NCBI GenBank assembly: GCA_021740995.1
Contig: JAIOYR010000029.1
Span: forward strand, 1-42,272
DNA length: 42,272 nucleotides
Origin: Taibaiella sp.
GTDB lineage: Bacteria > Bacteroidota > Bacteroidia > Chitinophagales > Chitinophagaceae
Direction: 5' to 3'
The translations under genes and the position numbers were made by a program. The notes below the pieces were generated by a model. It saw only the letters and a list, made by a program, of their open reading frames with translations. It made no database searches and had not been told where the DNA came from. The first letter of the stretch is position 1, and every line of letters begins with the position of its first letter. Shown piece by piece: positions 21,557-30,920 of this stretch.

Positions 21557-23191
<1,635 letters not shown>

Positions 23192-23195
<4 letters not shown>

Positions 23196-23968: not shown

Positions 23969-26353
23969 ATGCCTGAACAGATTAGTCATTTACAGAATGA
24001 GAGCGAAGCAGACACATGCAGAAAAGATGTATTGCCTAAAATCTACGACAGTGGCTGGAATGACGACCAAATTTCTGAGCAAAGAACATTTACAGATGGA
24101 AGAATTAATATCGTAGGACGCAAAGCAAAACGAAGGAAAGCAAAACGATATGATTATCTGCTGCGTTATTCTCAAAACCTACCTATCGCAATAATTGAAG
24201 CAAAAAACAAATACAAAATTGCTGCCGATGGAATCCAGCAAGCAAAGGATTATGCGGAAATCCTTAAACTGAAATTCGCTTTTGCAACGAATGGAACTGA
24301 GATTCTCGAATTTGACTTTATCACAGGACTTGAAAGATATATAGACAGATACCCCTCCCCTCAAGAATTGTGGGATCGATTAAATGGAGCAGACCCAGTA
24401 AAGCCTGAAATCCAAGAAACCTATCTAAAACCCTTCTACCCAATTGTAGGTAAACCTGAAAGATACTATCAAGTTATCGCCATAAACAGAACGGTAAAGG
24501 CGATATTAGAGGGTAAGAAAAGGGCTTTGCTTACTTTGGCTACGGGCACAGGAAAAACGACTGTTGCTTTTCAGATCATTTACAAGCTATGGAACAACCG
24601 CTGGAATACTAAGAATGAATATCGGCGACCAAAGGTTTTATTCCTTGCTGACCGAAGTGTTTTAGTGACAGATCCCCATTCCAAAGATTTCGCTGTTTTT
24701 GGCGATGCACGATGCCTGGTTCCCGAAGAAGGCTTGCCGAGCAGCCGGGAAATTTACTTTTCTACATATCAATCCCTCGCTGAGGACAAAAATAGACCAG
24801 GCATATTTCGCAATTTGCCTAGAGATTTCTTCGATTTAATTGTAATTGATGAGTGCCATAGGGGCAGTTCTTCAGAAGAAAGTAACTGGCGAATAATATT
24901 AGAGTACTTCAATACTTCAGTTCAGTTGGGTCTAACTGCTACTCCTTTACGGGAAGACAATAAAGACACCTACCAATATTTCAATAACCCTCTTTATACT
25001 TATAGTTTAAAGCAGGGCATTGAAGACGGGTTTCTTGCGCCATATATAGTTCATCGTATAGTTCCGCTTCCCGATGCAATTGGCTTCCGTCCACAGGAAG
25101 GACAATTAGACGATAGAGGTCAAACAATACCAGATGGCATTTATACAACTCCTGACTTTGAAACGTTAATTTCCCACTTACCTCGCACAAAGGCTGTTGC
25201 AAAACACCTGTATGACTTTATGTGTAGGAATGGAAGGTACGATAAGACCATAGTGTTTTGTGTCGATCAGGAACATGCCGATCAATTTAGGCGTGAGCTA
25301 AACAACTTAAATAATGACTTGGTTCAGCAATATCCAGACTATGTTGTGAGGATAGTATCTGAAGAAGGTGATGTTGGAAAAGGATTTCTTGGGAAGTTTA
25401 TGGACATTGACGAATCATTCCCGGTGATAGTTACAACCTCACGCTTAATGAGCACTGGTATTGACGTTCAGACTTGCAAAAACATCGTTATTTTCAGGAT
25501 GGTAAATTCCATGACTGAATTTAAGCAGATTATTGGTAGAGGAACACGGGTAAGGGAGGATAAAGAGAAATTGTTTTTCACAATTTTAGATTATACCGGA
25601 AGTGCAACACGAAATTTTGCCGATCCTGATTTTGATGGAGTACCACCACTAATAACAGAAGCTGAAATTGATGATGCAGGCAACGAAATTCCGGGCAGCG
25701 AAACTTCGTTTGAAACTCCACCCGAAACAGATGACGAGAATGATTCACCGCCGCCACCCAATTGGACTAGCAAAGGAAGGAGACAGAAGTTTTATATTAC
25801 TGAAGGAGAAGTAACCATTTCGGCTGAGAGCGTTCAGATAATTGGCGAAGATGGCAAATTGAGAACAGTACAATACACTCAGTATGCCAAAGAACAGATA
25901 ACTACGCTATTCCCATCCATGATCAACTTTAATGAAAAATGGAACAACCTCGACGAACGTAGACTTATTTTTGAAGAATTAGAAAACAGCGGGATCTCAA
26001 TTGACCAGTTGATCGAGATTACTAATCAACAATCTGCCGATCCATTTGACCTATTATGTTTTGTGGCTTATGACTTAAAGCCTCTGACTAGAAAACAGCG
26101 ATCTGATCTATTGAAGAAAAATAAGCCAGATTTTTTTAAGCAGTACAGTGACAAGGCGAAAGAAGTATTGAATATGATTTTGGAAAAGTATGTTGACTAT
26201 GGACTTAATCAAATTACGCCTGATATAATTTCTGTAGAGCCAATAGCGCAACATGGTAATCCGATTGAAATACTCAGTGAGTTTGGTGGAATAGACCAAT
26301 TCAGAAGTGCAATAGAAAAATTACAAATCCTGCTTTACGCAGATGCAGCATAA
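23969..26353 (+). CDS. hsdR: Type I restriction enzyme R subunit (nuclease/translocase)
   Basis: 794 residues. The N-terminal PD-(D/E)XK nuclease (about 55-100) shows Asp62 in KRYDYLLRYS and Glu77-Ala-Lys79 in LPIAIIEAKNKY, with QQAKDYAEIL after it. The superfamily 2 translocase has Walker A ATGTGKT (191-197), DECH (294-297), TATP (323-326), and QIIGRGTRVRED as motif VI (about residue 512). The C-terminal region (about 610-790, ITTLFPSMINFNEKWN, LCFVAYDLKPLTRKQRSDLL) resembles the EcoEI-type R C-terminal domain. The complex cuts DNA lacking the matching methyl mark after translocation. The ATG at 23969 is followed by the usual NESEADTCRKDVLPKI start. Eight bases separate it from hsdM. All key motifs are intact, so it should be active. 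Confidence 0.94.
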   Translation: MPEQISHLQNESEADTCRKDVLPKIYDSGWNDDQISEQRTFTDGRINIVGRKAKRRKAKRYDYLLRYSQNLPIAIIEAKNKYKIAADGIQQAKDYAEILKLKFAFATNGTEILEFDFITGLERYIDRYPSPQELWDRLNGADPVKPEIQETYLKPFYPIVGKPERYYQVIAINRTVKAILEGKKRALLTLATGTGKTTVAFQIIYKLWNNRWNTKNEYRRPKVLFLADRSVLVTDPHSKDFAVFGDARCLVPEEGLPSSREIYFSTYQSLAEDKNRPGIFRNLPRDFFDLIVIDECHRGSSSEESNWRIILEYFNTSVQLGLTATPLREDNKDTYQYFNNPLYTYSLKQGIEDGFLAPYIVHRIVPLPDAIGFRPQEGQLDDRGQTIPDGIYTTPDFETLISHLPRTKAVAKHLYDFMCRNGRYDKTIVFCVDQEHADQFRRELNNLNNDLVQQYPDYVVRIVSEEGDVGKGFLGKFMDIDESFPVIVTTSRLMSTGIDVQTCKNIVIFRMVNSMTEFKQIIGRGTRVREDKEKLFFTILDYTGSATRNFADPDFDGVPPLITEAEIDDAGNEIPGSETSFETPPETDDENDSPPPPNWTSKGRRQKFYITEGEVTISAESVQIIGEDGKLRTVQYTQYAKEQITTLFPSMINFNEKWNNLDERRLIFEELENSGISIDQLIEITNQQSADPFDLLCFVAYDLKPLTRKQRSDLLKKNKPDFFKQYSDKAKEVLNMILEKYVDYGLNQITPDIISVEPIAQHGNPIEILSEFGGIDQFRSAIEKLQILLYADAA

Positions 26354-26361
26354 ATAACAGA

Positions 26362-27939
26362 ATGGCAAAAGCTAAAAAAGAAAAGGAAGTAAAAAAAACA
26401 CCAAAGCCTGTAGTTGCAGAAACGCAGGCTCAACGCTTATCCGGCATAATAAAGACCTGCAGAAACCTTATGCGTAAGGACAAGGGTCTGAATGGCGATG
26501 CAGACCGCCTGCCCATGCTTACCTGGATAATGTTCCTGAAATTTCTGGACGATAATGAACAACTCCAAGATGTAAATGCACAACTGGAAGGTAAAAAATA
26601 CAAACCGGCTATTGAAAACCCTTATCGGTGGCGAGACTGGGCAAAAGATAAGAATATGACCGGAGATGATCTGCTGGCGTTTATTAACAACGAGAAAGTA
26701 AAACTACCTGATGGAACAGAAACTACTGGGCTATTCTACTATCTAAGAAGCCTTCAAAGTGAAAGCGGAGCGGGACGTAAAGATGTGATATCCGCTGTTT
26801 TTAAAGGTGTAACTAACCGCATGATAAGTGGCTTCATATTGCGTGATGTAATAAACAAAATAGACGAAATACATTTTACCAGTAATGAAGAGTTAAACTC
26901 TCTATCCCGTTTGTATGAAAGCATACTGAAAGAAATGCGTGATGCCAGTGGTGATGCCGGAGAATTTTATACTCCTAAGCCAGTGGTGAAATTCATGGTC
27001 GAAATGATCGATCCTCAGATTGGTGAATCAGTGCTTGATCCTGCTTGTGGCACTGGTGGCTTTTTGGTTGAGGCATTTGACCATCTAAATAAACAAGCAA
27101 AAACAGTACAGCTTAAAAAAACACTGCAAGAGAAATCGATATTTGGAGGCGAAGCAAAACCGCTTCCGTTTCTTCTTTCGCAAATGAATTTGTTGTTGCA
27201 TGGGATGAATTACCCAAACATAGATAGTGGTAACAGCTTAAGAATACCGCTAAGAGATATTGGAGATAAAGACAGAGTTGATATTATTCTGGCTAACCCG
27301 CCCTTTGGTGGAGAAGAAGAAAAAGGCATATTGAATAATTTCCCTGAAGACAAGCAAACGACCGAAACTGCATTGCTTTTTTTACAATTGATAATGCGTA
27401 AACTGAAACGCAAAAAGCCAACTGGAAGGGGCGGCAGAGCGGCAATCATTGTGCCTCACGGTACTTTATTTGCAGACGGAATAGCCGCCAAAGTAAAAAA
27501 GCAATTGGTAGATGATTTTAACCTCCACACCATTGTGCGTTTAGGCGAAGGTGTTTTTGCACCGTACACGGATATTGCTTGTAATTTATTATTTTTTGAG
27601 CATGGTGTACCAACAAAACAGATTTGGTATTATGAATTGCTCCCTCCGGCTGATAAGAAGAAGTATAGTAAAACGAAACCAATACAATTAGATGAGTTTA
27701 CTGGAATAAAGGACTGGTGGACTAATCGGGTGGAAAATGATAACGCCTGGAAGGTTGATATTAAAGACATTTTAATTTTCGATGAATCCGACAAACTGAT
27801 AAATGTTGACCTTGACAATAAAAATCCCAATAAAAAAAATGAGTTTGAATACAAGGATCCAAGTATTTTGATTGGTTCTATTCTCGATCGAGAGAAAAAA
27901 GTGTTGAAATTATTAGAGGGAATTAAGAATATTATATGA
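26362..27939 (+). CDS. hsdM: Type I restriction-modification methyltransferase M subunit
   Basis: 525 residues; N6-adenine methyltransferase using SAM. An N-terminal helical domain (about 20-180) includes RNLMRKDKGLNGDADRLPML and SGFILRDVINKIDEIHF. It is followed by AGEFYTPKPVVKFMVEM, SAM motif I DPACGTGG (226-233) and catalytic NPPF (312-315). The C-terminal domain interacts with the S subunit. M2S acts as the methylase alone and with two R subunits as the nuclease. It is the second gene of the operon, eight bases after hsdR and 24 before hsdS. Basic N-terminal Lys-rich tail (AKAKKEKEVKKTPK). Motifs intact. Confidence 0.95.
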   Translation: MAKAKKEKEVKKTPKPVVAETQAQRLSGIIKTCRNLMRKDKGLNGDADRLPMLTWIMFLKFLDDNEQLQDVNAQLEGKKYKPAIENPYRWRDWAKDKNMTGDDLLAFINNEKVKLPDGTETTGLFYYLRSLQSESGAGRKDVISAVFKGVTNRMISGFILRDVINKIDEIHFTSNEELNSLSRLYESILKEMRDASGDAGEFYTPKPVVKFMVEMIDPQIGESVLDPACGTGGFLVEAFDHLNKQAKTVQLKKTLQEKSIFGGEAKPLPFLLSQMNLLLHGMNYPNIDSGNSLRIPLRDIGDKDRVDIILANPPFGGEEEKGILNNFPEDKQTTETALLFLQLIMRKLKRKKPTGRGGRAAIIVPHGTLFADGIAAKVKKQLVDDFNLHTIVRLGEGVFAPYTDIACNLLFFEHGVPTKQIWYYELLPPADKKKYSKTKPIQLDEFTGIKDWWTNRVENDNAWKVDIKDILIFDESDKLINVDLDNKNPNKKNEFEYKDPSILIGSILDREKKVLKLLEGIKNII

Positions 27940-27963: not shown

Positions 27964-29097
27964 ATGACAAAAACAAAACTTAGGGATGTAATTAGTCATC
28001 GTAAAGGATTTATTAGTATTAGCGATGACAGCAAGTATAAATTATGTAGAGTTCAAACAAAAACACTAGGAGTTGTCCTGCGTGAAGAAAAAGATGGAAT
28101 TGATATAAAGACCAAGCAGCAACAAGTTTGTAAAGCAGGAGATTTGGTTTTTGCTGAAATGGATGCGCGATTTGGAGCCTACGGAATCGTTCCATCTGAA
28201 TTACAGGGGGCAATCGTTAGCAGTCATTATTTTCTTTATGACGTTAATAATAGTAAAATAGAAAATAAATTTTTGGAATACTGCTTAAAGCAGCCGTGGT
28301 TCTTTTCTCAGGTTGAAGCCAAGGGTTCAACAAATTATGCGGGAATTAGACCCACTCAAGTATTAGAGTATGAAATACCTCTACCTTCAATACCTCAGCA
28401 AAGAAAAATAATACAGAAGATTGAATCTATAAACGAGAAACTCAGCAAAATAGATTTGCTAAAAAGGGAACAGCACTTAGAAATAAGAACTTTACTTTTT
28501 AGCAAATACACCGATCTTATTAAGGATACTGATTGGTTGCTAATGAAAGATGTTGCTCCTATTATTCGCAGGCCAGTAGTAATAAACGAGACTGCATCTT
28601 ACCCAGAGTTAGGAATAAGGTGTTTTGGAAAAGGTACATTCCATAAACCAGCCTTAACAGGTATGGAAGTAGCCACTAAAAAGATCTTTCAGATAAAAAA
28701 GGGAGACCTAGTTTTTAGTAATGTTTTTGCATGGGAAGGAGGAATTGCCATAGCAACAGATGAAGATAATGACCGTTATGGCTCACACCGTTTTATTTCT
28801 TGTGTAGCCGATATTAAAAAGGTGCTGACTGAATTCTTATGCTTTCATTTTCTATCGCCTAAAGGACTAGAGGATATTAACGCTTGTAGCCCCGGCGGAG
28901 CAGGTAGGAATAAAACTCTTGGATTAGATAAATTGATGAACATTAAGGTGCCAGTTCCTTCAATTGAATCTCAAAAAGAATTTGTATCTATACTTAAACT
29001 CACCGAAAAAATAAAGGAGCAACATACTCAAACAGAAAAAGAAATTAATGAGCTTATGCCAGCCTTATTAGACAAAGCGTTTAAGGGCGAGCTTTAA
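27964..29097 (+). CDS. hsdS: Type I restriction-modification specificity S subunit
   Basis: 377 residues with two target-recognition domains, each ending in the conserved helix: TRD1 (about 5-140, end IPLPSIPQQRKIIQKIESIN) and TRD2 (about 190-335, end VPVPSIESQKEFVSILKLTE). The two helices form the spacer that sets the distance between the halves of the recognition site. The two TRDs differ (GAYGIVPSE.. versus CFGKGTFHKP..), so the site should be bipartite and asymmetric. The target cannot be read from sequence. No second hsdS or inverted repeats nearby suggest phase variation. The final MPALLDKAFKGEL is the usual end of S subunits. Nine bases before the next gene. Confidence 0.92.
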   Translation: MTKTKLRDVISHRKGFISISDDSKYKLCRVQTKTLGVVLREEKDGIDIKTKQQQVCKAGDLVFAEMDARFGAYGIVPSELQGAIVSSHYFLYDVNNSKIENKFLEYCLKQPWFFSQVEAKGSTNYAGIRPTQVLEYEIPLPSIPQQRKIIQKIESINEKLSKIDLLKREQHLEIRTLLFSKYTDLIKDTDWLLMKDVAPIIRRPVVINETASYPELGIRCFGKGTFHKPALTGMEVATKKIFQIKKGDLVFSNVFAWEGGIAIATDEDNDRYGSHRFISCVADIKKVLTEFLCFHFLSPKGLEDINACSPGGAGRNKTLGLDKLMNIKVPVPSIESQKEFVSILKLTEKIKEQHTQTEKEINELMPALLDKAFKGEL

Positions 29098-29106
29098 TTT
29101 TTACCA

Positions 29107-30357
29107 ATGGATATATCGGTTAAATATTATAATGAAGCTGAGAGATTGCTGTTTCAAGCATATCCTAAGGTTGGTGTATTGAATACACTGACTGCAAATA
29201 CTGCGAGTATCGCAAAGGATGATTTGCTTGCATATATGATGTTTACTGAGCAAGGTAATTTTACCGGCAGAAGAACCTACGCCGATCTAAGTGCAAAGAT
29301 TCAACAAAGGTTAGGTGATTTCGACGACCATTTTACATTTAATAATGGCAGTATTCAAGCACGATACATAGGTAATGATATGGTAGGCGACTTTACTGAA
29401 AGGCTTGGTGTAGGGTTAGGTCTGTGTGTAGTAGATAAAATTGAAGGGTTAACACAAGCTGACTGGGAATTAATACCTATTGGAACAACGCCATCGTTTG
29501 ACTATAAAATTCAAGTTGCATCCACAGGTACAAATTTCATCCAGGCTGAAAATAAAGGGAGCATTATTGCAAACAATACAGAAAGGCCACCTACTGTCAG
29601 TCGGCATTATTCGAGTATAAAAACAAAGAAAGGGCATTTACGTGAAGAAGACAGAACTAACAACATTACCTTATTTAGTACCGTTTACTATGGTACGATT
29701 GGTGTTCTTGATAATCAAAATGGTAGCGTAGCCAGAGTTTGGCTGGTTGATCCTACCGCTATTGTGTTGAAGATGGATCCATATAAATTCAAGTTGGTCG
29801 CTCGATTAAAACATTACTTGGTGGAATTTGCTAATGTTGGGGTACATAATTTTATCATTAAGGCACTTGAGGAAAGAATTAGTGAGATTGTACAGTCCGA
29901 GGACTACCTTAAATATAACAACGTGCCAATAGGCATAAAGAATCCAAAGTATATACAGACTTATATGAAGAGGGAGATGTACGCAGCAGTAGATACAAAT
30001 GAAGCATTTGGTAAAATATTTATAGTCGAAAAAGAGAAAAGATTAGTGCCATTTCTAATCGCTTACCCAAAAGCACTGATTAAATTACTTATTAATCAGA
30101 ATTTTGAAGAAATAGTCAAATATCAGTATAGCCCTGATTTCATGAATGAAAGTGTTCAGGTACTTATGCTTGTTTGGCCAAAAGATTATGAAAGTAAAAA
30201 AATGCCCGATATTAAGTTAGTGTTTGACGAAACCCGCAAAAGATATTCGGCAACATACTTTGGAAAAATAAACCATGATAGTAGCGGACGAATATTCGGA
30301 TTGCTTGATAAAGAACAGGAATTAAAATACAAATCATTCGAGGAGGATTTAGATTAA
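29107..30357 (+). CDS. Uncharacterised protein with PD-(D/E)XK nuclease-like core, fourth gene of the RM operon
   Basis: 416 residues; no named family recognised. Residues about 92-155 show a restriction-endonuclease-like pattern: a helix with Glu98 (VGDFTERLGVGLGLCVVDKI), Asp132 in TTPSFDYKIQVAS, then Glu148-Asn-Lys150 in NFIQAENKGSII, matching E...D...ExK of the PD-(D/E)XK fold. N-terminal residues (1-90) and the long C-terminal part (about 185-416; YGTIGVLDNQNGSVARVWLV, PFLIAYPKALIKLLIN) are unassigned. It starts nine bases after hsdS, so it is very likely co-transcribed with the RM genes and may be an accessory nuclease or a separate defence effector. The nuclease reading is inference from motifs; the frame is intact. 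Confidence 0.75.
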   Translation: MDISVKYYNEAERLLFQAYPKVGVLNTLTANTASIAKDDLLAYMMFTEQGNFTGRRTYADLSAKIQQRLGDFDDHFTFNNGSIQARYIGNDMVGDFTERLGVGLGLCVVDKIEGLTQADWELIPIGTTPSFDYKIQVASTGTNFIQAENKGSIIANNTERPPTVSRHYSSIKTKKGHLREEDRTNNITLFSTVYYGTIGVLDNQNGSVARVWLVDPTAIVLKMDPYKFKLVARLKHYLVEFANVGVHNFIIKALEERISEIVQSEDYLKYNNVPIGIKNPKYIQTYMKREMYAAVDTNEAFGKIFIVEKEKRLVPFLIAYPKALIKLLINQNFEEIVKYQYSPDFMNESVQVLMLVWPKDYESKKMPDIKLVFDETRKRYSATYFGKINHDSSGRIFGLLDKEQELKYKSFEEDLD

Positions 30358-30419
30358 CCTGAGAATTCAAGCCCCAAAACCGGCGATTTATTTAGATTAT
30401 CCATAGATTTGGTTTGAAA

Positions 30420-30920
30420 ATGTTCGCGGGCATTCAAAAACCCTTTACCATCATGGAGAAAAATAGTCAAAATCCACCGTCATTTCTGGAAATCAAGCTC
30501 GAAAGGCTAAAAAAGAAGCTTGCAGAGACGCAAAAGGAGCTTAGTGAAACAAGAGATCAATTGCACAGGCAGGAAAACGAGAACACAAAACTGCGGTTGT
30601 TGCTAGATAACTATGTAAACCCGAAAGATGAATACAACAAAAGCAGAACATGGGTCAGTAAAATCGCATTCATTGTAGCCAAAGCGAATAAACCACTTCG
30701 TTCAGCCGAGATTATTGCACTGCTGCTGAGAAGAGAACCCGTGCTTCATGAAAAGGAAAGTAAAGAAAAGTTTATTTCACCATCGCTCAATTCAGCAATA
30801 AAATCGAAACGGCTAGTCCCTTACAAATTGCCGGGTGTGCGGGGCAATTTTTATTGCCTGCCGGAATGGGTGAGTGAGGAGGGTGAGTTATTGCCGGAGA
30901 TGCGAAAGAAGATCTATTAA
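30420..30920 (+). CDS. Coiled-coil plus winged-helix-like small protein
   Basis: About 167 residues from the ATG at 30420, or 156 from the ATG at 30453, which fits better the start of the conserved-looking part (MEKNSQNPP). An N-terminal heptad-rich coiled coil (LERLKKKLAETQKELSETRD, about 25-65) is followed by a C-terminal domain (about 80-165: SKIAFIVAKANKPLRSAEII, ALLLRREPVLHE, SPSLNSAIKSKRLVPYKLPG, VRGNFYCLPEWV). It resembles winged-helix folds such as HARE-HTH: helix, ...SxxIxxxL, then a wing with KLPGVRGNFYCLP. A dimeric DNA-binding role is plausible. It follows the nuclease-like gene by about 60-95 bases on the same strand and may regulate or assist the island's operon. No named family. 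Confidence 0.65.
   Translation: MFAGIQKPFTIMEKNSQNPPSFLEIKLERLKKKLAETQKELSETRDQLHRQENENTKLRLLLDNYVNPKDEYNKSRTWVSKIAFIVAKANKPLRSAEIIALLLRREPVLHEKESKEKFISPSLNSAIKSKRLVPYKLPGVRGNFYCLPEWVSEEGELLPEMRKKIY

Follow-up and report, generated by a model that had tools for sequence, protein, structure and literature searches.

The type I restriction-modification locus

The window analyzed here, a stretch of 42,272 nucleotides from Taibaiella sp., contains a type I restriction-modification (RM) operon in which hsdR, hsdM and hsdS are followed by a fourth gene encoding a protein of 416 amino acids. The features of this region are listed below.

21557..21629 (+): tRNA-Met (cat), a possible integration site (ARAGORN); overlaps the 3' end of the recombinase gene
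21588..23195 (-): large serine recombinase, 535 aa (Pfam Resolvase 6.2e-27 and Recombinase 7.1e-12)
23969..26353 (+): hsdR, EcoAI-family type I restriction subunit, 794 aa, motifs intact (NF046051, 960.6 bits)
26362..27939 (+): hsdM, type I methyltransferase subunit, 525 aa (Pfam N6_Mtase 9e-62; PADLOC MTase_I 4.1e-178)
27964..29097 (+): hsdS, specificity subunit, 377 aa (Pfam Methylase_S 9.9e-17, two stretches; PADLOC Specificity_I 2.4e-84)
29107..30357 (+): fourth operon gene, encoding a 416-aa probable PD-(D/E)XK nuclease whose family is unnamed
29356..29772 (+): residues 84-222 of that protein, the putative nuclease core, with E98, D132, E148-N-K150 and K174-K175

The RM system is complete, with R, M and S subunits all present; HsdR exceeds the 550-bit cut-off of NF046051 and contains the GTGKT, DECH and D62...E77-A-K motifs, and HsdM contains DPACGTGG and NPPF. 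The 416-aa gene is surplus to these three subunits. As the initial annotation had stated, it begins 9 nt past the hsdS stop codon and has an intact frame; its start codon is ATG, and a residue check placed E98, D132, E148 and K150 exactly where they had been reported. Its GC content equals that of hsdS (35.9% each), compared with 39.6% for hsdR, 39.0% for hsdM and 40.8% for the whole window. Because promoter-like and terminator-like sites around the operon showed no excess over the shuffle level, and the single 9-of-12 promoter-like site (29101-29130), a weak one, overlaps the start of the 416-aa gene, it is only the spacing of the genes that points to co-transcription of this gene with the RM genes. 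A frame encoding a 168-aa coiled-coil protein of no clear family lies 56 nt downstream (30414-30920), and its higher GC content (42.0%) hints that it is outside the operon. Upstream, the large serine recombinase gene ends within the tRNA-Met gene, which raises the possibility that the RM operon belongs to an element inserted there; a second copy of the tRNA-Met site, which would mark the other end of the element, was searched for within the window and was absent.

A rare protein family with a conserved candidate active site

The protein had been described as belonging to no recognized family, and this held in every library searched. The window protein, the only member run against NCBIfam, had no match at E<=1 in Pfam, PADLOC or NCBIfam. 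When six family members were compared singly with Pfam, nothing convincing was returned (four families, one member each, best E of 0.031), and the seventh had no Pfam match at E<=0.01. There was no PHROGs match for any of the seven at E<=0.1 and no PADLOC match for the four members scanned (window, L001, L002 and L008), and searches of the PDB by sequence and by profile each gave one chance-level match (E of 1.8 and 0.78). Likewise, tblastn found no match among phages (window and L014 proteins) or plasmids (window, L014 and L008 proteins), and scans of viral contigs found no relative.

Relatives were found in bacterial genomes. A scan of genome contigs with six exact 8-residue patterns, which detects close relatives only, identified L001 in a Melioribacter MAG (52% identity) and L002 in a Bacteroidetes MAG (50%). 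Whole-genome searches found the gene in one of 99 near relatives, namely the window's own genome, and in four of 395 genomes of the phylum; further draws, which overlap and used differing queries, contained carriers in 2 of 98, 2 of 197, 2 of 395, 1 of 36, 1 of 13, 4 of 332 and 1 of 4 genomes. Altogether these represent seven distinct carriers: G000 (window), G270 (with a contig as long as that of L001), G781 (with the contig coordinates of L002), G319 (L008), G465 (L009), G497 (L014) and G113 (L021). The family is rare in the phylum of the window; for other phyla, coverage came solely from the pattern scans and from the collections of phages and plasmids. A literature search, with supplements outside its scope and no family name to serve as a search term, found no description of the family, and the 416-aa protein is therefore a member of a rare and apparently undescribed one.

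Identity to the window protein in an alignment of all seven members is 51, 50, 28, 27, 23 and 21%, and 22 columns are invariant, 14 of them within residues 95-200. E98, D132, E148, K150, K174 and K175 are among the residues conserved in all seven. PD-(D/E)XK enzymes are defined by a conserved D and a [DE]xK motif, usually together with an E in an upstream helix, and all seven members have E98, D132, E148 and K150 as candidates for these residues. The window protein contains seven D-x7-25-[DE]xK triplets and 20 E/D/E/K quartets with an upstream E; only one of each is fully invariant, and in both cases it is the one that had been singled out previously. Since this pattern persists down to 21% identity, whereas every other triplet and quartet varies, E98/D132/E148/K150 is more than a chance pattern. 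In addition, the pattern includes the strand-like stretches FDYKIQVAS and FIQAENKGS, and the order and spacing of E98 - D132 - E148-x-K150 are consistent with the motif order of PD-(D/E)XK enzymes. Such conservation is good evidence that the protein has a PD-(D/E)XK-like site for catalysis or metal binding. A decaying gene can be dismissed, given the intact frame and the divergence of L008 and L009, which are identical at 317 of 380 residues with an overall dN/dS of 0.40 (dN 0.091, dS 0.229), dN exceeding dS (0.024 versus 0.014), on few changes, in the first 125 codons.

For the fold the evidence was at most suggestive. AlphaFold2, run with only three alignment rows (window, L001 and L002), gave a mean pLDDT of 32.5 both with the full-length sequence and with its core. 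In HHalign comparisons the core scored 21.8 against NOV_C (DUF3883; PF13020), the best of three profile comparisons, with none of 200 column shuffles as high (shuffle maximum 16.95) and with the D and ExK residues in register, but the reported probability was only 5.6%, no member matched NOV_C in Pfam, and a reversed core scored nearly as well against HsdR (20.05). Comparisons with Mrr_cat and with the HsdR N-terminus gave no signal (14 and 67 of 200 shuffles as good, respectively). NOV_C was chosen once the motif was known, its alignment was built from six of nine loci, and that of Mrr from 19 loci among those returned. Known nuclease families also missed each other by this method (6, 56 and 28 of 100 shuffles as good), indicating that the profile comparison is a weak test and its outcome only suggestive. 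Of the earlier proposal that the gene encodes a PD-(D/E)XK nuclease, the conserved quartet stands in all seven members, and the fold does not draw support from structure prediction. Judging from the conserved residues, the protein may adopt the alpha-beta-beta-beta-alpha-beta PD-(D/E)XK fold.

Gene neighborhoods and the slot behind hsdS

The neighborhoods of the six relatives of the window gene are as follows.

L001: hsdR, an hsdM-hsdS fusion, then the family gene after 20 nt
L002: AbiEii gene, hsdR, hsdM, hsdS, kwaA, kwaB (Kiwa), the family gene after 5 nt, ietA, ietS and a short TmtA-like frame
L014: an hsdS-like frame truncated at the contig edge, hsdR from a different type I family, a gene for a YgjP-like metallopeptidase, then the family gene after 12 nt
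L008 and L009: a large helicase, a DpdE/DrmD-like helicase, a DrmMI-type methyltransferase of ~1300 aa, then the family gene 36 nt on (from its ATG)
L021: the family gene flanked by cas6 (type I-B CRISPR-Cas operon) and a metallophosphoesterase gene, each >200 nt away

Type I RM genes are thus found at four of the seven loci (window, L001, L002 and L014) and a DrmMI-type methyltransferase at two, and neither is present at L021. The cut hsdS of L014, whose contig ends before hsdM, and the methyltransferase of L009 were recognized by eye; of L008 and L009, which should be counted as one event because they are near relatives, the neighbor families were scanned at L008. The contig of L021 has no RM gene on inspection by eye, and an EcoAI-type hsdR is present on another contig of the same genome. 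A link of homologues to RM or other defense genes had been anticipated, and the alternative that they are scattered without such a link fails, since six of the seven adjoin type I RM or DrmMI-type methyltransferase genes. The placement by which we recognized defense cargo of type I RM operons, namely inside or directly behind the hsd genes, in several genomes and dispensable for RM, was found for four of the seven.

Several loci have further features. At L001 (5785-7971) HsdM is fused in-frame to one HsdS-like half, giving a protein of 728 aa directly behind which the family member lies, and L002 (211-14181) is a dense run of defense genes in which Kiwa directly follows hsdS. The row of genes at L008 (27-11373) comprises a DruE/MrfA-like helicase, the DpdE/DrmD-like helicase and the DrmMI-type methyltransferase, whose best models come from different PADLOC systems. 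A SIR2-like frame and a PDC-S34-like frame lie near the family member at L009 (1820-7137).

As a control we surveyed the position behind hsdS in other EcoAI-type operons. NF046051 matched at E<=1e-80 in 59 of 247 genomes of the phylum, 46 of which exceeded the cut-off, with 50 matches; 40 of the corresponding regions were taken, the ten left out including those of the carriers G000 and G270. The family gene was absent from all 40. Slot genes, defined as same-strand genes of at least 100 aa starting within 60 bp of the hsdS stop codon, were counted in the 21 regions with an HsdS labeled downstream of hsdR, the 19 without one being omitted; in L081 hsdR was masked by the greedy ORF caller, and in some other regions hsdM went unlabeled for the same reason. 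Another gene filled the slot in 11 of the 21 operons, and eight of the ten such genes scanned (L072 was left out) had a PADLOC match at 1e-4, namely three PtuA-like ATPases, AbiZ, PDC-S31, an Mrr type IV enzyme, a patatin effector and a PDC-M66A/HipA-like protein, the two others being an RNase II-like and a zinc-finger-like protein. These counts, which are not independent because some loci come from one genus, suggest that the position directly after hsdS frequently serves as a cargo slot in genomes of this phylum. Consequently, the modified RM mechanism offered earlier as one explanation of the extra gene is not needed, since other, mostly defense-like, genes occupy the same position. Extra same-strand genes were also present between hsdR and hsdS in L071, L072, L073, L074, L084 and L085.

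Proposed role and alternative explanations

We propose, with a probability of about 0.6, that the 416-aa protein represents a new family of probable PD-(D/E)XK defense nucleases that uses the cargo slot of RM operons and provides a second line of defense. The protein would be a DNA-cutting enzyme riding directly behind hsdS and expressed together with the complete type I RM system, and it would act independently as a backup nuclease when DNA, such as modified phage DNA, evades or blocks the RM enzyme. We infer DNA as the target, the co-transcription and the antiviral role, and our guess is that its mode of action is that of a type IV (modification-dependent) or backup nuclease and not that of an RM subunit. 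A separate defense nuclease carried and expressed with the operon is the simplest account of the data.

The best placed of the alternatives, which we still consider unlikely, is that the protein cooperates with the methyltransferase system beside it, reading that system's mark or the state of its enzyme or firing upon RM inhibition as PrrC does. In favor of such a partnership, six of the seven members lie in runs of closely spaced genes, 5-36 nt after the gene that precedes them, together with RM or methyltransferase genes of different types (EcoAI-family type I, another type I hsdR family and DrmMI-type). The unrelatedness of these neighbors, however, argues against a single dedicated protein contact. 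Moreover, L021 lies on a contig in which no RM gene was recognized by eye, even though its genome has an EcoAI-type hsdR elsewhere, the Kiwa genes intervene between hsdS and the family gene in L002, and none of the 40 other EcoAI-type regions carries the gene. Pairwise identities among the three EcoAI-type systems (window, L001 and L002) are 76, 76 and 88% for HsdR and 52, 51 and 66% for the family protein, which agree on the closest pair, a point in favor of the main proposal, but HsdM (75, 79 and 78%) ranks the systems differently, which counts against both that proposal and a partnership; with three systems only, the agreement between HsdR and the family protein is weak.

A non-nuclease function is also improbable and comes next. 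Here the protein would be a conserved binding or regulatory protein that uses the E/D/ExK residues otherwise, or a nuclease fold serving as a sensor, as inactive nuclease folds do in other systems (PMC12839542). The AlphaFold2 result leaves room for this reading by lending the fold no support, but inactive copies are not expected to keep all four candidate catalytic residues, as all seven members do.

Much less likely is that the protein is a simple type II-like restriction enzyme that recognizes one fixed site of its own and against which the neighboring methyltransferase protects. The size of the protein, its site beside a methyltransferase and the E/D/ExK motif would fit such an enzyme, but the first recognition domains of the three neighboring HsdS proteins are only 29-34% identical, compared with 51-66% for the family protein, making a shared fixed site unlikely. 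For the window and L002 the second recognition domains are 80% identical, leaving some scope for this reading in that pair, whereas pairs with the single half of L001 are 23-26% identical. The operon appears to have retained the family gene while its specificity changed, an argument against an enzyme bound to a single site.

Finally, a type I RM subunit was rejected, as the protein matched no HsdR, HsdM or HsdS model in Pfam, PADLOC or NCBIfam at E<=1 and all three subunits are already present. The window protein likewise had no PADLOC or Pfam match to the type IV enzymes Mrr, McrBC or GmrSD, or to Shedu (SduA/DUF4263), for which these libraries presumably hold models.

The kind of arrangement proposed here, defense genes nested in type I RM operons, is already known, and it is the family itself that is apparently new in the literature searched. 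Within our own survey, the EcoAI-type operon of L080 likewise has a gene for a predicted nuclease, Mrr, immediately after hsdS, but this enzyme belongs to the recognized Mrr_cat/Mrr_N family, to which the window protein has no match. The DarTG2 system acts by DNA ADP-ribosylation. Its copy embedded in the type I RM system of EPEC (PMC12255303) is a toxin-antitoxin system rather than a nuclease and sits between hsdS and hsdR, unlike the window gene. TgvAB is a GmrSD-family type IV restriction system embedded in the type I RM cluster of V. cholerae VPI-2 (PMC11411939) and an independent restriction nuclease that, like the window family, also occurs outside such operons; it differs in consisting of two GmrSD-family proteins encoded inside the RM genes, whereas the window protein is encoded behind them and matches no type IV model. 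PrrC (PMC12707154) is an anticodon nuclease in the EcoprrI type I RM locus and likewise an extra nuclease gene and backup effector, but it cuts tRNA and is switched on when the RM enzyme is inhibited, unlike what is proposed for the window protein. Auxiliary or backup PD-(D/E)XK nucleases in BREX and BREX-related loci (PMC12839542) are also standalone effectors added to methyltransferase-based defense loci, their host systems being BREX-like rather than type I RM operons.

With the 416-aa protein, the second-line effectors nested in restriction operons gain a further probable nuclease family, one that has no name in the libraries searched. From the slot survey, the position after hsdS in EcoAI-type operons of this phylum appears to be a productive one for finding new defense genes. 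More speculatively, and with little likelihood at present, the family may plug into unrelated methyltransferase systems (EcoAI-type, another type I and DrmMI-type) as a backup effector that reads its neighbor's mark, either keyed to methylation or triggered by inhibition. Should the family indeed respond to the marks that different methyltransferases leave, it would constitute an effector shared across types of defense.
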